A stretch of 64,000 bases of DNA from Siphonodentalium dalli (Eukaryota; Mollusca; Scaphopoda; Gadilida; Siphonodentaliidae): assembly GCA_032622095.1 (NCBI GenBank), contig CP136062.1, positions 131,209,282 to 131,273,281 on the forward strand, written 5' to 3'. How positions within the stretch are numbered: the stretch's first letter is position 1; every line of letters begins with the position of its first letter. A program made the position numbers and the translations under genes. Below the pieces are notes generated by a model, which saw only the letters and a list, made by a program, of their open reading frames with translations, was not told the DNA's origin and searched no databases. Positions 3,037 to 62,759 of the stretch are shown here, in pieces.

Positions 3037-3444
3037 GAATGTAGATTGACTATCATCGAGACTCCAGCGTACTCAATCCCTGACTGGAACAATTACCAAT
3101 ACGACAAGCGGGTAAGAAAACACCGAGAGAACCCGGCAAGATATCCACCAGCAATACAACCTCCTAATCCAGAAGACCACCAAAACGTACTGACTGAACA
3201 AATCAGACAACTTAACATCGAGAATAAGGCAATCAACCAGTCTCACCATCAAAATTCACCGGAATTCTCATCCGACCTGCGCACGTACAAGAGGCACGTC
3301 ACAGGACGCGCACGGCGAAACACCAGGACTGAGACCAGGTACAATTACAAGCTGTACAGAAATGATGGCATCCACCCTGATGAATTACTCAGTGAAGTCT
3401 GGCTCCGGAAAATCAGGAACCAGATACTCAAAGACTGCTGGTAG
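3037..3444 (+). pseudogene. LINE ORF1, C-terminal SGNH-hydrolase-like part
   Basis: The frame is open from 3037, after an in-frame TAA, to the TAG at 3442-3444. It starts mid-protein, so no start codon is expected. Visible landmarks are ETPAYSIPDWN near the beginning, an LTEQIRQLN segment in the middle and LYRNDGIHPDELL near the end. The Asp-Gly-Ile-His stretch fits the last catalytic block (DxxH) of SGNH esterases, a domain known from the ORF1 proteins of CR1-like LINEs. The earlier GDS and Asn blocks would lie in the missing 5' part. The end overlaps the first ATG of ORF2 (3362) by about 80 bp in another frame. The SGNH call rests on motif layout only. Confidence 0.55.
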
Positions 3445-4786
3445 TAAACAAAATGTGGGTCGGTATGGGCTGAACCATGCTATAACCCATACCAGACAAA
3501 AAACACACCAGACCACACCATCAGGAGCACTGCGGAGAAAGGGTAGGCATGGGCTGTACCATGCTACACCCTACACACTCCAACTGGCACTGCAGAGAAA
3601 GGGTAGACATGGGCTGTACCATGCTACACCCTACACACTCCAACTGGCACTGCAGAGAAAGGGTAGGCATGGGCTGATCCATGCTACACTCTATTCACCC
3701 CATTACCAACGGGCACTGCAGAGGAAGGGTAGGCATGGGCTGATCCATGATACACTCTATGCACACCAAAACCAAAAACACCAGGCTCTACACAACAAAA
3801 ATAAAACAAAAGCGGGTCGGTATGGGCTGAACCATACTATACCCCTAACAGATAGCCACAAAAGGAGATATGGGAACATAACAACGGCAAAACACCTGCG
3901 CCTCCTCCTCATCATCGCTGGCATCGAACAAAACCCGGGGCCCAAAAAAGCGAAAAAGAAAGCTCCCACTAAGCAAAAGGAAAAATCAGTATACCCTTGC
4001 GGAGTATGTGAAGGAGCAGTGACATGGACAGTCATCGTAGGAGTATGCTGCGATGGATGTGATGTTTGGCATCACTACTCATGCGTAGACCTAGACACAG
4101 CAGAAGTCCAGTCACTAGAAGAAAGACCCAGCAAAGAATGGAAATGCATGAAATGTGACAGCATCAACATCGAGAGCTTCACATTACATAGCTATGAAGT
4201 CAGTACCTCCAACTACTACCAAACACTAAGCCATCTAGACAGCTCCATCCGAAGTATGAACTCAATTTTCGACCCGACCCATACTAGCAGTCCCAAAGCA
4301 GACACAACTCTAGGCTCAGCATCAAGATCGAACAGATTAGCATCCCAAAATACCTTTAACACACCAAGAAAAGACAATCTCAGATTGTTAATTGTTAATT
4401 GTAGAAGCCTAGTCAGCAACAAAGCGGAACTGGAAATTGCAACCTCCTACATAAAGCCTGATGTTATCATCGGTACAGAGTCATGGCTAAAAGGAAAGAA
4501 ACCAGGAAAAGAACCAGCCCAAAATGCCATCAAGTCAGCTGAAGTCTTTCCTGAAGATTATACTGCCTATAGGAACGACCGAGATACTACGGGTGGAGGA
4601 GTCTTCATTGCCATTCAACAGGAAGCAGTTGCAATAGAGAAGACAGAATATATCACCAACTGCGAAATTGAATGGATAAAACTGTCAATACAAGGAGGCA
4701 AGCATATACACGTGGGAATTTTCTACATGGCACATCGATCCAAATCAGACATAGAAAATCTAGAAAAATCCATCAAAGCACATTAA
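3362..4786 (+). CDS. LINE ORF2, N-terminal part: peptide repeats, 2A, PHD finger, endonuclease start
   Basis: The first two codons are ATG ATG at 3362, overlapping ORF1. A start slightly downstream cannot be excluded. Residues about 30-165 contain six copies of a Gly-Arg-His/Tyr-Gly-Leu-x-His motif spread over repeats of about 60-87 bp. A 2A-like motif lies at 181-194 (GIEQNPGP core) and a Lys-rich linker follows. A C4HC3 PHD finger spans about 213-265 (Cys213, Cys216, Cys230, Cys233, His238, Cys241, Cys262, Cys265). From about 340 the AP endonuclease begins, with the VNCRSL and TESWL motifs and a GGGVFIAI strand. The frame closes at 4786 inside the endonuclease, and the rest continues one frame over. 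The 2A motif predicts that the peptide-repeat leader is released from the PHD-EN-RT product by ribosome skipping. The function of the leader is unknown. Confidence 0.8.
   Translation: MMASTLMNYSVKSGSGKSGTRYSKTAGSKQNVGRYGLNHAITHTRQKTHQTTPSGALRRKGRHGLYHATPYTLQLALQRKGRHGLYHATPYTLQLALQRKGRHGLIHATLYSPHYQRALQRKGRHGLIHDTLYAHQNQKHQALHNKNKTKAGRYGLNHTIPLTDSHKRRYGNITTAKHLRLLLIIAGIEQNPGPKKAKKKAPTKQKEKSVYPCGVCEGAVTWTVIVGVCCDGCDVWHHYSCVDLDTAEVQSLEERPSKEWKCMKCDSINIESFTLHSYEVSTSNYYQTLSHLDSSIRSMNSIFDPTHTSSPKADTTLGSASRSNRLASQNTFNTPRKDNLRLLIVNCRSLVSNKAELEIATSYIKPDVIIGTESWLKGKKPGKEPAQNAIKSAEVFPEDYTAYRNDRDTTGGGVFIAIQQEAVAIEKTEYITNCEIEWIKLSIQGGKHIHVGIFYMAHRSKSDIENLEKSIKAH
3457..3844 (+). repeat. Six tandem hairpin-forming repeats in the ORF2 leader
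   Basis: Six copies begin at 3457, 3541, 3601, 3661, 3727 and 3814. Each is about 31 bp and is set in a longer, less regular unit. Each can form an inner stem ATGG/CCAT closing a GCTG-containing loop, extended by one variable pair and, in most copies, by an outer GGGT/ACCC stem. The variable pair is C-G in copies at 3541-3727, T-G in the copy at 3457 and T-A in the copy at 3814, which is a compensatory pattern. The same DNA encodes the Gly-Arg-His/Tyr-Gly-Leu peptide repeats. Confidence 0.7.
3902..3943 (+). other. 2A-like ribosome-skipping motif
   Basis: The encoded residues are LLLIIAGIEQNPGP. The core x-I-E-x-N-P-G-P matches the 2A consensus, with Gly in the usual Asp position. Skipping would occur between the Gly (3938-3940) and the final Pro (3941-3943). 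Comparable motifs upstream of the PHD/endonuclease region are known from several invertebrate Jockey-group LINEs. Activity of this variant has not been tested here. Confidence 0.75.
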
Positions 4787-7109
4787 AAAAGACTCCAGCT
4801 TCATCCATGGGGGAGACTTTAATTGTCCTGACATCGACTGGGATACAATGACTGTAGGGCCGGGGGCACAAGACCGAGAGATACAGAATGACCTCATCAA
4901 CGTGTGTGCGAAATTAGGACTAAAACAGGTACAGGAGGACCCAACCAGGGAAGGAAACCCACTGGACCTAATCATAACAAACAATCCAGCATTAATAAAA
5001 TCCACCACTACAATACCTGGCATATCAGACCATAATATGATCATTGCTGACTGTTCTCCAACTCCATCCTACAATAAACCAGTACAGAGAACTAGATATC
5101 TATTCGACAAGGCAAATTGGACTGACATAGCTGCAGATGTTGAGAAGATAGCGGTGCAAATAGAAGATTCTCCCACTGATACCAACATCAACACCATGTG
5201 GAACTTCTTTCGCGATTCCATCAAAGAAGTTGTGGAAAAAAGAGTACCAAAAGCACCAAGATGTCGACGCAAACAACTGCCATGGATAAATAGAAGACTC
5301 AAATTGCTTCTAAGGAAAAAAGCAAGATTACACAGGAAAGCTAAAGAAGCAGGATGTTGGAAAGAGTATAAAGACCACCAGAAAAAATGTAGGAGAGAAA
5401 TGAGGAAAGCAGAACAAGAACAAATAAACACCATAATAAAGAAGGGGGAGGAAAAGAAAACATCAAAACCCTTCTGGAGCTACATGAAGGCCCGAAAACA
5501 AGAAAGAACAGGTACGCCACCGCTAAAAACAGGAACATCACTCACAAACGATGCAAAAGAGAAGGCGGAGCTACTAAATAAGTCGGTATTCACCATAGAC
5601 ACTAACGAAGAGCTACCATCCATACCACAAAACAGTGTAAACATCAAACCACTGGAAATTACAGAAGAAGGAATAAAGAAACTCCTGGAAGATATAAAAC
5701 CATCAAAGGCACCAGGTCCAGACAACATCCCTAACAAAGTACTCAAATTACTGGCCAACGTACTGGCGAAACCCATCACCACCATATTCAACAAATCCAT
5801 AGAGACCGGCACCCTTCCAGAAGACTGGCTGAACGCAAACATAACACCAGTTTATAAGAAAGGAGACGTTCACCAACCATCCAACTACAGACCAGTATCA
5901 CTCACTTCAACATGCTGTAAGCTACTAGAGCACGTCCTGTGTAGACACATCCGCGACCACCTGGAACTCTGCAACCTACTGACTGATAGAAACCACGGAT
6001 TTAGATCTGGCCACTCATGTGTTACCCAGCTTGTAAACACCACACAAGATCTACTATCATCCTTTGACTCGGAGAAGCAAACCGATATGGCAATCCTCGA
6101 CTTTTCCAAAGCATTTGACACGGTACCACACCAGAGTATACTATACAAACTGAAGTCATACGGAATCACAGGACCAATACACACCTGGCTGACAAGCTTC
6201 CTAACAAAAAGGCATATGAGACTAGTGTTGGGAGGAGAAACATCCAAAAGTGTTCCAGTGGAATCGGGAGTACCACAAGGTTCAGTACTAGGACCCCTAC
6301 TATTCCTCTGCCACATCAACGACCTTCCACAAGCAGTCAAATCAGAAGTAAGACTCTTTGCTGATGACTGCATACTATACCGCCAGATAAATGACCACAT
6401 CCAACTACAACAGGATCTGACATCACTAGAAGAATGGGCGAAAACCTGGGGGATGAGATTCAATGCTGGAAAATTCTCCATAATGTCCATGAAGAACAAG
6501 GACAAGAACAAAACATCGTTCATCTACCAGCTTGACCATCAAATTCTGCAATCAGTCAAACAAAGCGTCTACCTTGGACTGACCATCACAGATTACCTAA
6601 AATGGTCAACGCACATATCCAAGATCACTGGAAGGGCCAATAGCACCTTAGGCTTCCTGCGCAGAAACTTACGTAGAGCGGACAGTAAATCCAGAGAGTC
6701 CGCATATAGAGCTATGGTGAGAACATCACTCGAATATGGAGCAGAAATATGGGACCCCGTCGCAGTAGGAGAAATAGAGAAGTTAGAGAAAGTGCAGAGA
6801 AGAGCGGCAAGATTCATCACCAACAACTATAGAGACCGGGGAAAAGGCACAGTAACCAGCATGATTGATGGCCTAAGGTTAGACTCACTAGAGATCCGCA
6901 GAAAGATGAAGAGAATAGAACTCTTCGGCAAGGTGGTTGAGGGGAAAATCCCAGCCATACACACACATGATTTACTAAAGGATAAGAAAGGAAGGAAAAT
7001 CCGAGCAAAAAAGTTTCCAGACCACAAAAGTGATAACATAATTTCGAGCCAAGAGTGTATCAACTCACGATCGTTCGAACCAATAAGACCCAACATTCTT
7101 TCTTCGTGA
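4787..7109 (+). CDS. LINE ORF2, rest of endonuclease and reverse transcriptase
   Basis: This continues the ORF2 protein in the next frame. The homologous frame is open from about 4788 (HGGDFNC motif near 4808), so the first in-frame ATG (4848) is not a real start. Numbered from that ATG, the endonuclease ends with SDHNMI (about residue 60). The reverse transcriptase spans about 260-560. It has APGPDNIPNK, the first catalytic Asp in LDFSKAFDTVPH (about 418), the SGVPQGSVLGPLLF block (about 470) and the catalytic FADD box (504-507). A thumb-like region contains YRAMVRTSLEYGAEIWDP (about 624-641). The frame stops at 7107, but a typical LINE C-terminus (FFVRTISDWDS) continues in another frame from about 7085 to a TAG at 7181. 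This copy therefore carries a second frameshift. The enzyme would nick target DNA and prime reverse transcription from it. Confidence 0.92.
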
Positions 7110-7201
7110 GAACGATCAGCGACTGGGACAGTATAGAAGATTACGCATGCTCGGGGAATATGACAGGAGAAACACCAGAGTAGTAGCAACGACGCGACAA
7201 C

Positions 7202-7250
7202 AGCCGAAAGGCTCCTGCGCCGAAATAATACAGATACAGATACAGATAAC
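7202..7250 (+). other. LINE 3' end: hairpin with GAAA loop and (GATACA)n tail
   Basis: AGCC-GAAA-GGCT at 7202-7213 is a perfect 4-bp stem with a GNRA tetraloop. About 12 bp later a short GATACA tandem tail begins and ends near 7248. A conserved 3' stem-loop followed by a short tandem repeat is the form of end recognised by the reverse transcriptase in L2/CR1-like LINEs. Confidence 0.7.
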
Positions 7251-7579
7251 AATGGATAACTTACATTGTTCGATGGCTGATTGGCGTGTTATAAATATAT
7301 TATAGAATCAGGTGCCACGCTTTTACCTGGCCGTCTGAATTGTTACAGCACCCCAATGTTGGATATTAAAGAGTATGTGGATAATTACAATATAATAATA
7401 CATATATAGTGTGCTATTCATGAGGATTTTTGAGTGATTATTCTGTGCAAGATAATACACAATATATAGTGAAATTCAACAATGATTTAATTCAACAACC
7501 CATGATGGTGTCCTTTATCCGCGCGATATGGGGTGACCACAAGAAAGATGTTAACGCCGCAGACGAAGATGTCACCAAA

Positions 7580-37432: not shown

Positions 37433-37983
37433 AAAATATTTCGGTTTACGCCCAATATATGTTTTGCATAGCTGTTCAAAAGATAAGTTATCACTGTTCG
37501 GATTTGCTAAATTTCCGGCCCAAATTTCACTTCCGTATAACATGATATGATTGATTAATTTATATTTCGTTGGTAATGATAATTGTATTTTCGACCAAAG
37601 AGTTTGAGTTAAAGACATATTATGGACTTGTTCGTGTGCGTGAAACTGATAAGTTGGTATGCAGGCGCTATGCCAACTTAAGGAATGTAGCATTCTATTA
37701 ACATCGCCGAAAATCTCAAGCAAATTGACCACACCACTCCATAGAAAACATCGTGTGAATTACGCTCAATTGTAAATATTTACTTCTCGATTCGGGACGC
37801 ATTTGTCAGCGATAAATTACCGAACACGATTTCGCCATCGAAAGTCACTTTATTTAATTAATGTAATAGAATGACGATGTGTTTAGTTAATTTGGATATA
37901 ATATTTGTAAAAATAACTACTTTGAGCAAGATTATTCTCCATTTTATTTTATCACCCTACCGGAGTGTTTCACATCACTTTAA
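37433..37983 (-). pseudogene. LINE-like fragment, empty-site paralogue of the large Helitron target
   Basis: On the minus strand a frame at 37732-37430 reads SVNRML-like text, then KLINHIMLYGSEIWAGN and SFEQLCKTYIG, resembling the YGSEIWG and FCK-x-LG region near the C-terminus of some LINE proteins. The upstream part (to 37983, starting AAAGTGATGTGAAACACTC) and the GCGAAATC block match 49762-49872 joined to 56311-56560, and also 56790-57130. This copy runs without interruption across the point (near 37873) where those flanks are separated by the 6.4-kb insertion. Confidence 0.6.
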
Positions 37984-49058: not shown

Positions 49059-49761
49059 TGTACGACACAAGAAGAGCTGACAAAAGAGATCAAGCCCCAT
49101 GCCAGTAAGTGAGTATAAATACGACGTCTTCTGTGCTGGATACATGAAATTTTAATCGGTAAAACTTTGGAAAAGCATTCTCAAGGCAGGCTCTTTTAGA
49201 ATCCAAGAGTATTTCCCATATACAATATAGGTACTCAGTGTGACACCAGTAAGTGACTTCAGAATCTCTCAAAATCGATGGGATCAGCATGTGGTGTCTT
49301 TATTGATAACAAACACCGCCCATCATTGCCAGGTTGTGTGCAATGTCCAATAATCAAGCTATAAGTTTACTGGCATTTAAATAGAATATAGATATATATA
49401 TATACCAGTAAATCCATACGCGACTTTTAAGTGAATGGGCTTCAAGTTTAGTTTAGAAACATTTGTGCTTGAATTCCCGATCTTTATGGGGGTACGTTTG
49501 CACTATATACTATTCCATGTATTCGGTCATTTGCATGTCGTTAAAGGTTTGTGATCCTGATATAGTCAAATCCGGTGCGTCTTCCCAATGCTGGTCTTAA
49601 TGTCTCACGAGAATCGGCGATATTTCCATTCAGTCAAGCCTTTGCACAACCGGAGTGAGGTGAATGCGCGGTCGGAATTTATCATTGATGTACAATATAT
49701 TTAGCGCTCATTCTCCTTCTGAAATTTATATCATATTTTATCATTTTAATCGCATTGATTT
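49059..49761. other. No gene seen
   Basis: No recognisable frame or repeat. Confidence 0.45.
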
Positions 49762-49872
49762 TAAAGTGATATGAAACACTCAAGTTGGTGATCAAATAGA
49801 TATGGAGAATAATCTTGCTCAAAGTAGTTATTTTTTACGAATATTAATCCAAATTGACAATACACACCGTCA
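49762..49872 (+). repeat. Left half of the interrupted target repeat
   Basis: AAAGTGATATGAAACACTC...AATCCAAATTGACAATACAC...CCGTCA matches the start of 56790-56904 and, inverted, 37983-37873. It stops at the TC end of the Helitron-like insertion. The right half resumes at 56311. Confidence 0.85.
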
Positions 49873-49900
49873 TCTATATATATATTTTGAGACTTCCGTA

Positions 49901-49950
<50 letters not shown>

Positions 49951-51095
49951 GGTACTTCATAGAATCGAAAACGCGTCTACAGATTGAGCTCAAACTTCCT
50001 ATGTAAGTGTAAAATCACACCGACACCGCCGTGGTCGCGTTTTGGAGAAGCTCAGAGCACCCGTTCTCCAATCTCAGTCACAAAAAACGGCACTGCGGTG
50101 GTTAAGACATCAACGATCTTTATAATCAACGCTCTTTATTGCAATGGACGTGGCTAAACGACTGACCCCATGCGTCCGAAATACGGATGCGGACGAAATC
50201 CATATTTCACGACGGGATTAATTGACTGTCCGCTCTGAAGTTTAGGACGGGGAGGACGGGTACCATGAATTAACTCATTGAAAAACAAAGAATGCGTTAT
50301 CTCGGAAACGGGTGGAGCTATCGACTTGAAATTTGCTATGTGAATGTATCTTGCCCCGGATACAAATTTTATCGGGTCGCCGAGCCCGTGCGACACCAGC
50401 TTCGCGCATGCTCAGACGATATCTCGGAAACGGGTGGAGCTATCGACTTGAAATTTGCTATGTGAATGTATCTTGCCCCGGGTACGAATTTTATAGGGTC
50501 GCCGAGCCCGTGCGACGCCCGTGCAGCGCGTGCGCAGACGAGATATCGGAAACGGGTGGAGAATTTTATCGGGTCGCCGAGCCCGTGCGACGCAAGCTTC
50601 GCGCATGCGCAGACCAGATCTCGAAACGGGTGGAGCTATCGACTTGAAAAACAAAGAATGCGTTATCTCGGAAACGGGTGGAGCTATCGACTTGAAATTT
50701 GCTATGTGAATGTATCTTGGCCCGGATACAAATTTTATCGGGTCACTGAGCCCGTGCGACGCCCGTGCAGCGCATGCTCAGACGATATCTCGGAAACGGG
50801 TGGAGCTATCGACTTGAAATTTGGTATGTGAATGTATCTTGCCCCGGGTACGAATTTTATCGGGTCGCCGAGCCCGTGCGACGCCCGTGCAGCGCGTGTG
50901 CAGACGAGATATCGGAAACGGGTGGAGAATTTTATCGGGTCGCCGAGCCCGTGCGACGCAAGCTTCGCGCATGCGCAGACCAGATCTCGAAACGGGTGGA
51001 GCTATCGACTTGAAATTTGGTTAAATTAAAAAAATGTCATGTTTCTGAAACAAAGCCATGAGACGAATGCCGCCAGTGGCGGGCTAACCTGCTAG
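49873..51095 (+). mobile_element. Short Helitron unit A with minisatellites
   Basis: It runs TC...CTAG. After a (TA)n(TG)n stretch (49905-49950) come a unique block (49990-50280, shared with 55575-55930) and a minisatellite region (50290-51020). A unit of about 115 bp (ATCTCGGAAACGGGTGGAGC...GGGTCGCCGAGCCCGTGCGAC) is repeated there with deletions, in two higher-order blocks of about 366 bp. The last 95 bp are essentially identical to the end of the whole insertion at 56310. Confidence 0.8.
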
Positions 51096-51873
51096 TCTAT
51101 ATATATATTTTGAGACTTCCGTATATCTATTATATATTTTGGAAGATCTGTTTGTGTGTGTGTGTGTGAGGGTGTGAGGGTGTGTGTGTGGGGGTGTGCG
51201 TGTGTGTGTGTGTCTGTCTGTGTGATCGCGATGAACTCGAAAACGGCCGACCCGATTTCGATGAAACTTCGTATGTGAGGATACTATCGGTCGGGAAGTG
51301 GCATAGGCATATTAATTTTCAGATCCGAGGTCAACTTTTCACGTGCCGAGGTCAAATCTGTTTTTACGCCGTTTTGCGCTAATATATTTCAGTTCGGTGC
51401 TCACAAATCGATTCGATATAGCGCAAATAATAAATTGCCAGTCATATAATTTGCACGGTTAGAATCTGTGGCGCTTCCTCTTTCCAATGATGTATCACAC
51501 GCCTGTGTACGTTTAAAGTGTCTACCTTAATTATCGGGAAGAACGCAGGACCATGCTTCGCTCATCGAAAAACATTCCGTAAATATATTACGCCGTCAAC
51601 AGATCGTGACGTGATCATGTCGCGTTAACTCATCACCGGCCGATGTATCCGCAAATGACATTGGGCAATATATATATCTCGGAAACGGGTGGAGCTATCG
51701 ACTTGAAATTTGGTATGTGAATGTATATTGCCCCGGATACGAATTTTATCGGGTCGCCGAGCCCGTGCGACGCCAGCTTCGCGCATGCGCAGACCAGATC
51801 TCGGAAACGGGTGGAGCTATCGACTTGAAATTTGGTTTTTGAATAGCCCGGACGAAGTCGGGTCACCTTCTAG
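51096..51873 (+). mobile_element. Second Helitron 5' start and alternative 3' end
   Basis: The first 31 bases repeat the 5' end of unit A exactly and follow its CTAG with no base between. A (TG)n tract (51150-51225) and a CGATTTCGATGAAACTTCG block follow. Two minisatellite units (51678-51835) precede a different 3' end, CCCGGAC-GAA-GTCGGG hairpin and CACCTTCTAG at 51873. Confidence 0.7.
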
Positions 51874-52302
51874 TATGTATATATATATATTTATCTTATA
51901 CCGGTGTGAAGTTATACTGTGTATTAAATTCTCGTGATATCTTACATATGTGTATTATCATCTCAAGAAACGGACTATGCGCAGCGTGACCTTTCGCCTC
52001 GTGACGTCATGCTTGCCGTAGCGACGTATCAACAAAAAACTCTCGCCTCGAAATTGGGTCAAATAGACTGTAGCAATTCGAATGGTTTAAATGAGTAAAT
52101 TCATGAATAAAAGTGAAATAAAAAAAAGTACTGTAGCTTTATATCATAAAAAATGAATAAAAGTTCCCATTCAGAGCAAATATGTTAGGTTCAATTATTT
52201 TTTTTGGGTAATTTAGACGGCTTTCTCCGCAGAAAATTTGCAGTACTTTCGTCTGCTTTTAAAAGTTTAATTCGGACGTAGCTTGTACTGAATAATTGAA
52301 GT
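51874..52302 (+). promoter_or_regulatory. Upstream region of the recombinase ORF with a CRE-like site
   Basis: TGACGTCA, a full cAMP-response-element palindrome, lies at 52002-52009, and a GCGCAGCG stretch lies at 51980. No TATA box stands out at a useful distance from the ATG. Promoter function is inference from these two sites only. Confidence 0.35.
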
Positions 52303-54315
52303 ATGGATCTCAACGATCAGAATTTCGATGTTGATATGTCGTTTGATGAAGATATGCCAGGAATGACTACCCAGGATATAGAATCTCATTTTCTTGAGGG
52401 GTTCGACGTTGCAGAAGCCGAGGCTTCGGAGTCACAATCTACACAACTCTTTGATATCTTTAGCCAGGACAATGACCCTACTAGTAGTACTCCCACCCCC
52501 AGTAGCAACGCAAACAGTGAATTTGGTGCCTGTATTGAAGTTATTGAACTTACTGAGGACATTTCTAATAGATCTACTCTTATGGATAACTATGAAGCAA
52601 GTTCTGACCATGGTGACACCACATATTATCCCGAAGATGAAATGTCTCAATGTGAAAGTGAATCTCGTGATTCTGTTTCTGATCATCATGATGTCATTGA
52701 TGAGACAATTACTACTATTACTAATTATGTAGCTGAGTCTGAAACAGAAAGTACTGTACCTGAACCTGAGGAGAATAATCATGATGTACATCTTCCTGCA
52801 AATGAAAATCCAGATGAAAGCGATCATGGACCCAGCACCAGTAGTAGCATCAATATGTATGGAACCGATGAAGCCGAAGCTGACCATTTACTAGATTTAG
52901 AACCAATTGACTATGATGATGGGCGATTCATTCACATGGACAGTGATGCTATTGGTGAATTTGTTGACTCAAAGAGAAATGCGAACACGGTGAGGAAAAC
53001 ATATTACGATCTAAAACTGTTCAAACAATTTTTGAAATCACAAGGATTACAGGAGGATTTTCAGAACATCAGCCCTGTCTCTCTTGATCCTGCTGTTGCA
53101 AAATTCATTCTCTGTGTCAGAAAGCAAAATGGTAAGGACTATGAACCGACATCATTGCGGGGATTGATCTGCAGCATCGACAGACATTTACGGAGACACA
53201 GGTACCAGACGACCATACTAGGAGGAAAGGATCAGAATCTTTTTCAAGCTGCACGGGAATCCCTAGAAGCGAAACAACGAGATTTGAAGGAAAAGGGACA
53301 TGGAAACAAACCGTTCGCAGCAGATCCTGTCGATGATGATGATATCAAAATTCTTTATGCATCAAAAGTGCTTGGATGTCATGACCCAGAGACATTATTG
53401 CACACAATCTGGTTTAACAATGCGACACAACTTGGAATCAGGGGTCATAAGGCACATCACCAACTCAAATGGGGTGATATTAAGCTATCGAAGACTGTTG
53501 ATGGTGCCGAATATCTAACACACAATGAGCGTCAAACTAAGACAAGAACTGGAACTGACTGCCGAGATGTGAGGCAAGTGACGGGCAAAATCTTTGCAAA
53601 TGCTGTGATCGGAGATAAATGCCCGATATTCCTATACAAGAAGTATGCGTCACTGCGACCGGTTGGCTACTCAGAACAAGAAGACCCATTTTATTTAGCC
53701 ACAAGGACAATACCTCTGTCTGATGAACGCAGCGATAAATGGTTTAACAAACAAAAGGTGGGAATAAACAAACTTGGGAAAATCATGAAGTTGATTACAT
53801 CAAAATGCCCTCAACTAGATGATTCAGGAAAGCGATTAACAAACACGAGCACCGGGAAATATTGTATTCAGAAGCTGAGGGATGAGAATGTTCCGCCAAC
53901 TGATATCATGCAGATAACAGGACACAAGAATGTGGCTTCAATAAATAACTATTCGAAGTTGTCTATAAACAGACAGAAAGAAATTTCCACAATGCTCTCT
54001 ATGCCTGCTGGAAATATTGAAAATCAAGCAACAGCAGCAAGTTCCACACCTTATTTATCGTCAACTGGAAACTCAGCATTGCCATCAAGTTCAACTAATA
54101 ATCTCACAGTTACACCACCAGCTTCAGCCTCAGTGAATGTTCATTCCATGCAGTCGCTGACAATTTCGAATTCACACTCACACTCACAGCAAAACCAAAG
54201 TTTATTCTATGGGGCAACTCTTCACATAAACACTATGAATGTGAATACATACCCTGGTATGAATGATCCAAATGCACAACCTCTCCAATCTAATAATAAT
54301 CCAAATAATCAGTGA
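52303..54315 (+). CDS. Crypton-type tyrosine recombinase (DUF3504 / QRICH1-ZMYM-like), catalytic residues partly lost
   Basis: This is an intact single-exon ORF of 670 codons from ATG 52303 to TGA. Residues 1-210 are acidic and Ser/Thr-rich. About 215-300 look like the helical N-terminal DNA-binding domain (KRNANTVRKTYYDLKLFKQF). About 320-560 are the recombinase fold seen in Crypton elements and in the Crypton-derived QRICH1, ZMYM2 and KIAA1958 proteins. Landmarks are QLGIRGHKAHHQLKWGDI (Arg380), RQTKTRTG (Lys413), CPIFLYKKYASLRP, DPFYLA, the TGHK block (His541) and NNYSKLS (Tyr550). Where family members have an Asn-His-Ser-x-Arg-Lys box, this protein has NTSTGK (Thr515, Gly518), so the His and Arg of the active site appear missing. 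The tail from 570 is Ser/Asn/Gln-rich. It may bind DNA without recombining it. It sits inside the Helitron-type insertion. Confidence 0.85.
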   Translation: MDLNDQNFDVDMSFDEDMPGMTTQDIESHFLEGFDVAEAEASESQSTQLFDIFSQDNDPTSSTPTPSSNANSEFGACIEVIELTEDISNRSTLMDNYEASSDHGDTTYYPEDEMSQCESESRDSVSDHHDVIDETITTITNYVAESETESTVPEPEENNHDVHLPANENPDESDHGPSTSSSINMYGTDEAEADHLLDLEPIDYDDGRFIHMDSDAIGEFVDSKRNANTVRKTYYDLKLFKQFLKSQGLQEDFQNISPVSLDPAVAKFILCVRKQNGKDYEPTSLRGLICSIDRHLRRHRYQTTILGGKDQNLFQAARESLEAKQRDLKEKGHGNKPFAADPVDDDDIKILYASKVLGCHDPETLLHTIWFNNATQLGIRGHKAHHQLKWGDIKLSKTVDGAEYLTHNERQTKTRTGTDCRDVRQVTGKIFANAVIGDKCPIFLYKKYASLRPVGYSEQEDPFYLATRTIPLSDERSDKWFNKQKVGINKLGKIMKLITSKCPQLDDSGKRLTNTSTGKYCIQKLRDENVPPTDIMQITGHKNVASINNYSKLSINRQKEISTMLSMPAGNIENQATAASSTPYLSSTGNSALPSSSTNNLTVTPPASASVNVHSMQSLTISNSHSHSQQNQSLFYGATLHINTMNVNTYPGMNDPNAQPLQSNNNPNNQ

Positions 54316-54773
54316 CAAGTGATAAAATGTCTGTGGTTGTGCAAGTTTTAAATTCAGCCGGTGTGTTGAAGTTCAAGGATGTGCGCTACAACCAGAGTAC
54401 TATAGTCTTTTCCCAGAATGTTTAAAATTATTTAGCGGATTGACTGAATTGTGACTTAAAATTATCCTAAAAGACTGATTCATGGTTGAGAACATTGACA
54501 TTTAATTGATAACATTTCACAGTTCTTTATTTCAGACCACGTATAAATATTTAATCAGGACCTATATTTTGTTTATGATTGACTAATCACCCTCAATGAC
54601 CCATAGATCCGCAACCCCATCACATGTACTGTAACTGCGTATTCATGCGCAACGGAATTGCTCTTTGAAATTACCAAAATGTAGGTTGTTTTTGTTTCAA
54701 AACTGACATATATATAGCTTAATTTCACCAAAAATGATCATGTAGGTCGGCATAAGATAAATACAACAATAGC

Positions 54774-54898
54774 ATAGTGTGTTTTGAGATGTGTGTTATC
54801 TCAACTCGTTAGAAGTATGATTTTTCGCTCGGCAGAGCCTCGCGAAAAATCATACTTCTAACTCGTTGAGATAACACACATCTCAAAACACACTATGC
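54774..54898. repeat. Near-perfect hairpin of about 125 bp
   Basis: ATAGTGTGTTTTGAGATGTG and its complement flank an inner stem GAAGTATGATTTTTCGC / GCGAAAAATCATACTTC with a short loop at 54835-54840. Within the stem, ACTCGTT appears in the same orientation on both arms instead of complementary, leaving a small unpaired block. Confidence 0.85.
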
Positions 54899-54905
54899 TA
54901 TTATC

Positions 54906-54906
<1 letters not shown>

Positions 54907-54979
<73 letters not shown>

Positions 54980-54990
54980 TATATATATAT
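54907..54990. repeat. (TA)n microsatellite
   Basis: About 80 bp of TA dinucleotides with one phase break, next to the 3' end of the Penelope-like fragment. Confidence 0.97.
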
Positions 54991-55019
54991 GTATGATGGT
55001 GGATTGTGAAATAACACCT

Positions 55020-55565
55020 TTAAGACCTTTGAAATTTATATACGAACAAGCTTTCGGCTTTCGCCTTTCTCAAGTATAAGTCAGCATCTTTATTGATGCC
55101 CAGATGCAGGCTCCCGAATGCATCTATCATTTGTTGCTCTTTGATTCTGCGGTCCTCACGCACGGGCAGACCACCACACAATACCTGTAGACGAATGTCT
55201 TTAACTGAATGGTCAGGTAAGTTGAAGTGGCGGGCATATGGTAATCCCACATCATGTTTCCTGATATCCTGTCGATGGCCATTAACTCTAATGCTTAGAG
55301 AATTGCCAGTCTCACCAATATAATGCATGTCGGGGCAACGAACACATGCCATGTAGTATATCACCCCGGCCGACGTACACGATTGTTTTCCTTTTGGTGT
55401 GAATCGCTTCCCATCCTTAGTATGCATGACATCATTGGAGATGAGTTTCCACAAGCCACACCTAGGCCTATGACATGGAAATGTCCCGCTGTCACGTCCA
55501 TTCACGGTGTCATCGGTGAGTCGGCTCGACACAATCTTATTGGGCATCAATAAAGATGCTGACTT
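55020..55565 (-). pseudogene. Penelope-like element fragment: GIY-YIG endonuclease end
   Basis: On the minus strand the frame runs to a stop at 55020. It contains a PCHRPRC linker, a GIY-YIG domain (GVIYYMACVRCP, HYIGETGNSLSIRVNGHRQD), then ARHFNLPDHS and REDRRIKEQQMIDAFGSL, and ends ESLFVYKFQRS. Penelope-like elements carry this endonuclease behind their reverse transcriptase, where it nicks the target. The reverse transcriptase is absent, so this is a 5'-truncated copy. One linker position reads Trp where a Cys would be usual. The apparent first dozen residues are not genuine. They come from 55541-55565, an exact 25-bp inverted copy of coding sequence at 55078-55102. The ATG-like start is therefore an artefact. 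Confidence 0.85.
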
Positions 55566-55574
55566 TATGGCCAA

Positions 55575-56310
55575 AATCCCACCGACACCACCGTGGTCGC
55601 GTTTTGGAGAAGCTCAGAGCAACCGTTCCCAATCTCAGTCACAAAAAACGGCACTGCGGTGGTTAAGACATCGACGATCTGTATGTTGACCTTATATGGA
55701 GGTGTTAACAATCAACGCTCTTTATTGCAATGGACGTGGCTAAACGACTGACCCCATGCGTCCGAAATACGGATGCGGATTCCAATGGACGTGGCTAAAC
55801 GACTGACCCCATGCGTCCGAAATACGGATGCGGACGAAATGCAATTATCTCGACTTTCACGACGGGATTAATTGACTGTCCGCTCTGAAGTTTAGGACGG
55901 GGAGGACGGGTACCATGCAGTGAATTAACTCATTGAAAAACAAAGAATGCGTTATCTCGGAAACGGGTGGAGCTATCGACTTGAAATTTGCTATGTGAAT
56001 GTATCTTGGCCCGGATACAAATTTTATCGGGTCACTGAGCCCGTGCGACGCCCGTGCAGCGCGTGCGCAGACGAGATATCGGAAACGGGTGGAGCTATCG
56101 ACTTGAAATTTGCTATGTGAATGTATCTTGCCCCGGATACGAATTTTATCGGGTCGCCGAGCCCGTGCGACGCAAGCTTCGCGCATGCGCAGACCAGATC
56201 TCGGAAACGGGTGGAGCTATCGACTTGAAATTTGGTTAAATTAAAAAAATGTCATGTTTCTGAAACAAAGCCATGAGACGAATGCCGCCAGTGGCGGGCT
56301 AACCTGCTAG
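55575..56310 (+). mobile_element. 5'-truncated copy of the short Helitron unit
   Basis: It begins at CACCGACACCACCGTGGTCG, matching 50018 onward, and follows unit A through the CGCTCTTTATTGCAATGG block, a local 50-bp duplication (GACGTGGCTAAACGACTGAC twice, near 55732 and 55787), two minisatellite units and the terminal hairpin. It ends CTAG at 56310. Its missing 5' part is replaced by the Penelope-like fragment. Confidence 0.85.
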
Positions 56311-56565
56311 TTCTTATGTATTAATTAAATGCAATGACTCCCCATGGCGAAATCATTTGCGTTAGTTTATCGCCGATTGTGGCGTCCCGAATTGAAGTGT
56401 AAATATTTACAATTGTGCGTAATGTGGAGTGGTATGGTCGATTCATTTGACATTTTCGGTGATCTTAGTAGAATGATACATTCCCCAGGTTGGCATAGCG
56501 CATGGGTACTAACTTATAAGTTTATCGCACTCGAACAAGTCCATAATATGTCTTTAATTTAGACC
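56311..56565 (+). repeat. Right half of the interrupted target repeat
   Basis: TTCTTATGTATTAATTAAATG, then GGCGAAATCATTTGCGTTA...AATATTTACAATTG and GAACAAGTCCATAATATGTC match 56905-57130 and, inverted, 37620-37872. The coding-like frame includes DIFGDLSRM and EQVHNMSL, as in the relative at 37430-37732. Confidence 0.8.
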
Positions 56566-56789
56566 ATACTCTGGTTCCGGGTTTTTCAAGAGCCCCGGAG
56601 AATTCACAAACTGGTCACCCATCCCGACCTAACGGAAAGCCCCTATCGACACCACTCGACCACACTATGGCTTCATCAGCATGTGAGCACAGCTATAATA
56701 GTATGTACATGTAAATAACTTTATTGAAGTTCAACGAAGAACTATTTGGAGACAAGAGCATTAATGGAAAATATTAGATCGACGAGGGT

Positions 56790-57130
56790 TAAAGTATGAG
56801 AAACACTCCGACAGGGTGATCACATAGAAATTGAGAATTAGAAAGTAGTTATTTAATTGTTACGAATATTAATCCAAATTGACTATATACATCGTCATTC
56901 TTATATATTAAATAAATGCAATGACTCTCGTTGGCGAAATCATTTGTGTTAAATTATCGCTGAGAATCGTCCCGAATCTAGATGTAAATATTTACAATTG
57001 GACGTAGTTCAGACGATGTTTTCTATGGCGTGGTATGGTCCATTTCTTTGAAATTTTCAGCGATGTTAGTAACATGCTACATTCCCCAAGTTGGCATTCC
57101 CCAAATAAGTCCATAATATGTCTTTCAACA
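56790..57130 (+). repeat. Uninterrupted paralogue of the target repeat
   Basis: AAAGTATGAGAAACACTCC...AATCCAAATTGAC...CGTCATTCTTATATATT...GGCGAAATCATTTGTG runs without a break across the Helitron insertion point. It therefore serves as a natural empty site a few hundred bases from the filled one. Confidence 0.8.
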
Positions 57131-59518: not shown

Positions 59519-59625
59519 CAGAATGAGGTCCCCTAGCAAAGGGTGAATTTGGTGATGCTAGCCGCTATGCGGGGTAATATCTCTAAATTCACCCTCTGGG
59601 GACCTCATTCTGCAAATGTCAGGCA
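59519..59625. repeat. Hairpin module shared with the 35.7-kb foldback
   Basis: CAGAATGAGGTCCCCTAGCA...GGTGATGCTAGC...CTATGCGGGG...CACCCTCTGGGGACC...CATTCTGCAAATGTCAG has the same layout as one half of 35702-35955, including the CATTCTGCAAATG exit. The inverse copy lies at about 62585-62690. Confidence 0.85.
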
Positions 59626-59796
59626 CCTTATTTCCGGGCTTGATACCACCACTGGTATATGCGTTGGTTTGGGTGCAATGTGTCTAACCGTGAAACATGT
59701 GGTCCCCTGCTATAAGCATATACCCTTCGCTATGTGCATATTCGACTACATGGGGTTGTTTTTAGTGCATTCTAGTTCATTTTGGATTTTCGGAGA

Positions 59797-59932
59797 ATCG
59801 GGCCTTCGGAGTTATGGGCTTTCGGAGAATCGGGCTTTCGGAGAATCGGGCTTTCGGAGAATCGGGCCTTCGGAATTATGGGGTTTCGGAGAATCGGGCC
59901 TTCGGAGTTATGGGCTTTCCATGGCTGGCATT
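59797..59932. repeat. 16-bp minisatellite TTCGGAGAATCGGGCC
   Basis: Eight units alternate between TTCGGAGAATCGGGC(C/T) and TTCGGAGTTATGGGCT or a GGAATTATGGGGT variant. The opposite arm (62280-62413) also has eight units but in a slightly different order, so the arms have changed since duplication. Confidence 0.9.
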
Positions 59933-60237
59933 CTCAGAAATCCGGGCGGGCTAAGACCAGCCCTCCTCAATCAGCCTAGGTGGGCTATAGCCCTCCTCAG
60001 TGATGATGTCATAGCATGGACATTTTAGCCAACTACAGCGAAATCACATTCACGACAATGGAAATAGTCATTATCTGAACTAAACTGCGTTAATACATTT
60101 TACAAAGGCAGCCATTCCAAAATGTACCTCACCCCATAGACTTTACCCACCCGAATAAAGGCCATCGGTTATAGGGTGATAGAGCCAGAAACATTAATCG
60201 TGAGTCACTACTCATATAATGCAGTGGTCTTGTTATG

Positions 60238-61966: not shown

Positions 61967-62759
61967 TAACAAGAGCACTGCATTGTATGAGTAGTGACTC
62001 ACAATTAATGTTTCTGACTCTATCACGCTATAACCGATGGCCTTTATTCGGGTAGGTAAAGTCTATGGGGTGAGGTACATTTTGGAATGGCTCCCTTTGT
62101 AAAATGTATTAACGCAGTTTAGTTCAGATAATGACTATTTCCATTGTCGTGAATGTGATTTCGCTGTAGTTGGCTAAAATGTCCATGCTATGACATCATT
62201 CACTGAGGAGGGCTATAGCCCACCTAGGCTGATTGAGGAGGGCTGGTCTTAGCCCGCCCGGATTTCTGAGAATGCCAGCCCTGGAAAGCCCATAACTCCG
62301 AAGGCCCGATTCTCCGAAACCCCATAATTCCGAAGGCCCGATTCTCCGAAAGCCCGATTCTCCGAAAGCCCATAACTCCGAAGGCCCGATTCTCCGAAGG
62401 CCCGATTCTCTGAAAATCCAAAATGAACTAGAATGCACTCAAAACACCCCCAAGTAGTCGAATATGCACATAGGAAGGGTATATGCTTATAGCAGGGGAC
62501 CACATGTTTCACGGTTAGACACATTGCACCCAAACCAACGCATATACCAGTGGTGGTATCAAGCCCGGAAATAAGGTGCCTGACATTTGCAGAATGAGGT
62601 CCACAGAGGGTGAATTTAGAGATATTACCCCGCATAGCGGCTAGCATCACCAAATTCACCCTTTGCTAGGGGACCTCATTCTGTTCAGACATTGATCGGG
62701 TAGGGTTCAGTAGTCCGAAGGTTCAGTCCGAAGGTTCACTAGTCATTCCATATATGTCG

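Follow-up and report, generated by a model that had tools for sequence, protein, structure and literature searches.

A 6.4-kb block at positions 49873–56310 of the window, by which we mean the whole 64,000-nucleotide stretch of the Siphonodentalium dalli genome analyzed here (C2:131209282-131273281; the assembly has 2.23 Gb in 9 contigs), contains parts of several transposable elements. These are three Helitrons, called here Hel1, Hel2 and Hel3, a Penelope-type fragment, and a Crypton with a tyrosine-recombinase-like open reading frame (ORF). Coordinates are those of the window, features lie on its forward strand unless otherwise stated, and L numbers denote loci fetched from the genome for comparison. 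An earlier note on this DNA had read the block as a single Helitron that mobilized the recombinase gene together with the Penelope piece. We consider instead, at a probability of roughly 0.88, that the block is a nest of separate transposons and that the Crypton in it moves by its own recombinase route.

At its outer borders, the block is confirmed as one Helitron-type insertion between an A and a T. It starts with TC and ends with CTAG, with an A just before it at 49872 and a T just after it at 56311. Together, the flanks make up a single dispersed host repeat of ~370 bp. The left half (49761–49872), which is the target, matches 37983–37866 and 56789–56908 by BLAST, and the right half (56311–56560) is likewise delimited by BLAST; an alignment of four copies covers both. 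Three uninterrupted copies of the repeat were found, at 37983–37609 on the minus strand, at 56789–57097, and on contig C4 (L049). All three read CGTCATTCT at the position of the block, and the joint is without loss or duplication. Because these paralogues carry the site intact, one Helitron-type insertion took place at this A/T site. The flanking bases, the termini and the natural empty site described in the earlier note are, therefore, borne out. Its view that everything in the block entered as one Helitron insertion stands for the outer boundaries and falls for mobilization as a single unit.

The outer element is one non-autonomous Helitron, Hel3, and the other two Helitrons, the Penelope-type fragment and the Crypton all sit in it or at its edge. 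The first 30 bp of Hel3 (51096–51125) are severed from the remainder by Hel2; joined to 51874 onwards, they read exactly like the 5′ start of Hel1. Reading on from that start leads into a TA tract, which lies to the left of the Crypton at 51874–51889 and appears again, with no strand assigned, at 54916–54994, where tandem repeats and copy comparison indicate that it is shared with the 3′ tail of the Penelope-type fragment. The right part of Hel3, with its hairpin and CTAG end, occupies 55573–56310, as judged from BLAST, the hairpin and copies of the fragment, and its first 3 bases are shared with the preceding fragment. Hel1 (49873–51095) is a complete non-autonomous Helitron (TC...CTAG) at the A/TC border of Hel3, containing a 122-bp satellite-like array. 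It is defined by its sequence, its tandem repeats, related copies across the genome, and CTAG/TC joints at other loci. The last 80 bp of Hel1 and of Hel3 are identical (80/80). Hel2 (51126–51873) starts with TCTATTATATATTTTGG, ends with a hairpin and CTAG, and is nested between A51125 and T51874. The same start recurs at L002/L011 (there, too, inside the TA tract of a different Helitron), at L006/L007, where it follows a CTAG, and at L029/L030. The block, proposed earlier to be a single Helitron, thus holds three copies, each with a TC start, a CTAG end and a hairpin just before the CTAG. Hel3 and Hel2 each sit between an A and a T, with no duplication of the target; the placement of Hel1 at A/TC was judged by inspection of the sequence.

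Two other readings of the Helitron series were rejected. A start of Hel2 at 51096 fails because 51096–51125 belongs to Hel3 and the true start at 51126 recurs at other loci. A dimer or trimer produced by rolling-circle concatenation fails because the bodies and 3′ ends of Hel1 and Hel2 are not alike and because the start of Hel2 lies 30 bp downstream of 51096. Head-to-tail CTAG/TC joints are also present at other fetched loci of the genome. Maize Helitrons occur in a CTAG/TC arrangement, and one of the two orders given for it is insertion between the A of the host and the resident element's T (PMC2267711). The Helitrons here share with those known elements the TC...hairpin-CTAG ends, the A/T site, and a G/T joint between neighbors arising from insertion at host A plus resident T. 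They differ in that the nest in the window is deeper and has satellite-like inner units. Such 122-bp units are found in the Helitrons at 50298–50927 and 55957–56234, and CTAG/TC arrays are seen in L009–L013.

The Penelope-type fragment occupies 54995–55572 on the minus strand. Comparison of copies indicates that it is truncated at the 5′ end, which bears an inverted piece of 35 bp, and that ~150 bp are missing near 55076. Pfam, searched to E 10, has no match for a 184-aa frame at 55020–55574 on the minus strand; we take it for a putative Penelope-type GIY-YIG fragment because of its motif and of the many truncated copies near TA runs. The DNA of the fragment has many copies elsewhere. Among the 116 matching pieces listed, only that of the window continues past query base 581 into Hel3. 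In all three copies fetched, the 3′ end lies at a TA run or at most ~50 bp from one, and other copies are truncated too. The location of the 3′ end beside TA runs elsewhere is consistent with the fragment having inserted into the TA tract of Hel3.

The Crypton unit (51890–54915) has ends of its own, with end bases uncertain by a few positions owing to the TA tract. Its left end, L (51890–51905), is the start common to full and short copies. The genome searches considered best-scoring candidates only; for the Crypton query (51878–54780), the best 40 of 792 candidates were scored and gave 78 pieces. Copies are present on C4, C9, C2, C3 and C1, together with many short derivatives. On C4, the copy agrees with the window unit at 99.7% over 3027 bp and keeps the 670-aa frame open; the one on C9 agrees at 98.5% and is frameshifted. 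Both have unrelated flanks. Besides the window's own, 47 loci with Crypton sequence were fetched (L015–L050, L054–L064), and a Penelope-type piece was found at none of them. They include five better copies in unrelated flanks (L044–L048, the best at 99.7%) and two relics (L049 and L050). In the 6–10 kb fetched around each of these seven, no Helitron or Penelope-type part was seen; L049 holds the copy of the host repeat mentioned above. Since copies elsewhere stand without a Helitron flank, the recombinase element has its own ends and is bounded independently of the Helitron, an outcome that the earlier note itself had named as refuting its composite reading. A second case like the nest in the window is seen at L038, where a Helitron and a short Crypton derivative are neighbors of opposite orientation, with the derivative near the TA tract of that Helitron.

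Empty sites indicate that the Crypton inserts without target duplication, as observed for two short relatives. Ten joined flank pairs were queried, and for these two the site was found with nothing duplicated or lost. The L032 pair matched one place at 100% over 160 bases. The L042 pair accounted for 39 of the 40 places listed, 19 of them at 100% over 160 bases, and the other 8 of the 10 pairs were absent among those matches, which the L042 pair filled. Within the fetched loci, 11 joined pairs gave no spanning match. A 4-bp direct repeat, TATC, is present at both ends at 10 of the 19 right junctions in the window family (counted by eye, excluding the duplicate L030; for L035 and L040, no right end was found). 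We regard it as weak and do not rely on it because the targets are A/T-rich.

These boundaries suggest an order of events. Hel3 would have inserted first, between A and T of the dispersed repeat. Hel2 then presumably entered between A and T in the 5′ end of Hel3, and Hel1 entered the A/TC border between host and Hel3. A 5′-truncated Penelope-type copy would have entered the TA tract of Hel3, where part of the Hel3 5′ region is now missing. In what we take as the third step, a Crypton of its own family would have entered the same TA tract.

The ORF at 52303–54315 encodes 670 aa and matches DUF3504 at E 6.4e-21, which agrees with the recombinase ORF reported in the earlier note. A search of the genome with the PF12012 profile scored the best 150 of 1168 candidates, and all those listed were over the cut-off. 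Open frames of 563, 646 and 659 aa recur many times among the listed matches, many with equal score. Besides the window family, we looked at families named 659 (three copies fetched), 646, 563 and 551 (two each), and 525 and 548 (one each). Families 659, 646, 563 and 551 have the HxxR box, and their proteins match both DUF3504 and Phage_integrase over the cut-off. The window family protein gives a weaker match. It has T in place of H in the HxxR box, and the window copy also lacks the arginine that its relatives keep. The R-H-R-Y tetrad of Crypton recombinases, as named in PMC3212892, is thus not intact in the window family, which possibly receives recombinase help in trans. In five units (window, 659, 646, 563 and 551), the recombinase is the only sense ORF of at least 90 aa; two of the units have one short antisense frame. 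None of the five has a reverse transcriptase match, a second long ORF, or a Rep, helicase or endonuclease ORF.

The right end of the Crypton has a fold-back anatomy. A 16-nt inverted copy of L (54746–54761, minus strand; 13/16 by sequence comparison) lies directly before a terminal palindrome (54762–54915) whose 77-nt arms are 91% complementary and whose outer arm is the right end of the Crypton itself. The inner copy and the adjoining arm, read as the reverse complement, spell the right end followed by the left end, as at the junction of a circle. The palindrome was also considered as a miniature inverted-repeat transposable element (MITE) in its own right, which was rejected because it is the Crypton's own 3′ end. 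Such an inverted end-to-end junction just inside a long terminal palindrome is present in 5 of the 7 DUF3504 families looked at. In 659, 646, 563 and 551, the shared unit starts with TTTAT or ATTTAT and has the inner inverted junction and the long end palindrome. The ends of the five families were each set from two or more copies, and all five have this tail.

A scan sought a 16-mer that begins with TTTAT upstream of the ORF and recurs inverted, at 13/16 or better, downstream of it, followed by folding of 185 bases. Exactly one match was found in each of the five families, with folds of −66 to −94 kcal/mol. The probability of the left-end match is ~1e-6 to 2e-5 per family at one fixed offset, uncorrected for taking the best of ~314 offsets. 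With mononucleotide shuffles of the last 330 bases, allowing any offset, the observed score was reached in the following numbers out of 300: window 0, its C4 copy 1, 659 1, 646 1, 563 5, and 551 0. The inverted left-end match alone is therefore not overwhelming in each family. The inner junction counts because its distance to the hairpin is 0, 0, 1, 1 and 6 nt in the five families and because each family has no other match of its kind.

The palindromes have further features in common. By BLAST, the tails of the window family, 659, 646 and the 551/563 pair have no similarity to one another, so that complementarity is kept while the sequence of the arms differs between families. In one copy per family (window, L056, L057, L059 and L062), 11 of the 12 2x2 internal loops set CTCG opposite CTCG at mirror positions; in the window, the CTCG motifs are at 54805, 54828, 54839 and 54862. 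Among 16 short derivatives, the inner site is kept in 15 and the right end with the palindrome in 13; these came from a search that favors the left end, and L029/L030 are duplicates. When the joined ends are folded with DNA parameters, the left end pairs with the inner copy next to the hairpin in 5 of 5 families. At L061 (left of 361, reverse complement; C1:229753100-229757100), two 551-family ends stand head to head at their left ends via an A/T core, an arrangement that looks like one 551 element inserted in the end of another.

On this anatomy, we propose a model of movement. The tyrosine recombinase most likely joins the two Crypton ends and integrates them without target duplication. Judging from what the short derivatives keep, the parts required in cis are likely to be the left end, the right end, the inverted end-to-end junction and the terminal palindrome. 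In a single strand, base pairing between the left end and its inverted copy, next to the folded palindrome, would bring both ends together on a continuous splint. The recombinase could then circularize that strand on the splint. The anatomy of the tail is directly seen; the role of a folded single strand in uniting the ends is our inference.

Several observations weigh against parts of this account. The order of events within Hel3 is inferred, and the target base of the Crypton cannot be fixed within the TA tract. The folds do not show single strands in vivo. The window ORF is itself degenerate in the HxxR box, in a family with T for H. Family 525, known from one copy, has one 13/16 match with a weak fold of −24.8 kcal/mol, and the anatomy was not seen in the stretch fetched; family 548, also from one copy, has no match in the 1509 bases after the ORF. 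The 551 and 563 tails are 72% identical over 176 bp, which reduces the palindromes to four separate cases. The CTCG pairs vary as well: L055 of family 659 keeps a single pair, no pair is left in the C2 copy, L058 of family 646 has one of two, and all four CTCG are present in 7 of 13 short derivatives. Some of these points would suit a reading in which the nest and the ends are right, while the inner junction and palindrome are by-products of past inverted insertions with no role in movement. The head-to-head pair at L061 implies that inverted re-insertion does occur, two of the seven families lack the anatomy in the fetched stretch, and the CTCG pairs differ between copies. Against this, the anatomy is kept in most short derivatives, and pairing is kept despite different arm sequences between families. 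We think a by-product rather unlikely.

A Helentron-type rolling-circle element carrying a captured recombinase ORF is very unlikely. According to PMC4067079, Helentrons and HINEs have an inverse repeat of the left end near the 3′ end and then a palindrome, which resembles the tail seen here, and the genome has Helitron Rep genes with long open frames (PF14214; ~1600 aa in one group, as much as 2864 aa in another). However, the anatomy accompanies a recombinase as the sole sense ORF of at least 90 aa in five families, four of which have the HxxR box and Phage_integrase. The palindromes are far longer than the 5–10 bp given for mite HINEs in the same source. Helentrons have a TT target and T runs at the borders; the left ends here do begin with TT or TTT, but the right ends do not terminate in T runs, and neither of the two empty sites is TT. 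The five units have no Rep or helicase ORF of their own; for an autonomous partner with the same ends, the analysis covered the positions of the Rep genes.

The idea that a single composite Helitron took up both the recombinase gene and the Penelope-type piece through read-through of inner terminators, and then moved here as a unit, is highly improbable. It would account for the TC and CTAG outer ends and the clean empty site, the genome does have Rep genes, and Helitron pieces occur near 3 of the 47 fetched Crypton loci, all short derivatives (the duplicated pair L029/L030, well past the right end, and L038). However, the Crypton, with its own ends, and the Penelope-type fragment both have copies elsewhere without Helitron parts, each inner boundary is explained separately, and no second composite at a new A/T site is present among the Crypton or Penelope-type matches listed. 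The mobilization of both by a Helitron, as first suggested for this locus, is accordingly not supported. An assembly artefact is barely credible, since the inner boundaries are paralleled at other loci, even though repeats are hard to assemble and the analysis covered assembled sequence.

Among known systems, the Cryptons described here can be compared with the CryptonA elements of animals (Kojima and Jurka 2011, PMC3212892). They share a DUF3504-type tyrosine recombinase as the sole long ORF and short non-autonomous derivatives. They differ in the inner inverted copy of the junction and the terminal palindrome, since that paper reports no terminal repeats for animal Cryptons. The literature search, which did not reach Repbase reports, found no fold-back anatomy in published work; within the limits of these searches, the end anatomy appears to be new for animal Cryptons. 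In DIRS retrotransposons, an inner region is complementary to both element ends, according to PMC6681497, and the inner sequence of the Cryptons here is likewise complementary to both ends. Unlike DIRS, the Crypton units match no reverse transcriptase and contain no further long ORF. Inverted terminal repeats like those of DIRS were not seen in them, and the palindrome is extra. A further parallel is with integrons. The attC site is a folded single strand recognized by a tyrosine recombinase, and the mechanism we propose would be of the same kind; this is an analogy only, with no homology shown. To our knowledge, an inner copy of joined ends is known only from a different class of elements.

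Elsewhere in the window, positions 3046–7252 contain frames like those of a non-LTR retrotransposon, among them a putative 2A-like stretch and a putative reverse transcriptase-like frame. Repeated FGESGLRSYG-like units occur at 59543–60028 and 62249–62659, in two frames that resemble each other and lie on opposite strands. A scan of viral contigs gave no exact match; a further scan found three stretches that fit the pattern, none of which was confirmed as a relative, and a phage search gave no match.

The composite that first drew attention to this locus turns out to be ordinary, and the by-product of examining it is a shared, testable end anatomy for the Cryptons of one animal-type genome. 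A genome this rich in DUF3504 matches is a good ground for testing it. Going beyond this genome, it is possible, and we offer it tentatively, that many animal Cryptons are fold-back tyrosine-recombinase transposons in which an inverted internal circle junction and a terminal hairpin, often interrupted by CTCG pairs, form the splint, one strand is circularized by the recombinase, and the donor stays in place. On that view, DIRS elements would owe their internal junction to Crypton-like DNA elements, and it would be older than their reverse transcriptase. If the proposal is true, a donor that stays would explain how copy number can rise with an enzyme that cuts and joins. If the inner junction is the splint, it would link the DNA-only Cryptons with DIRS and offer a defined substrate on which excision and integration could be assayed.

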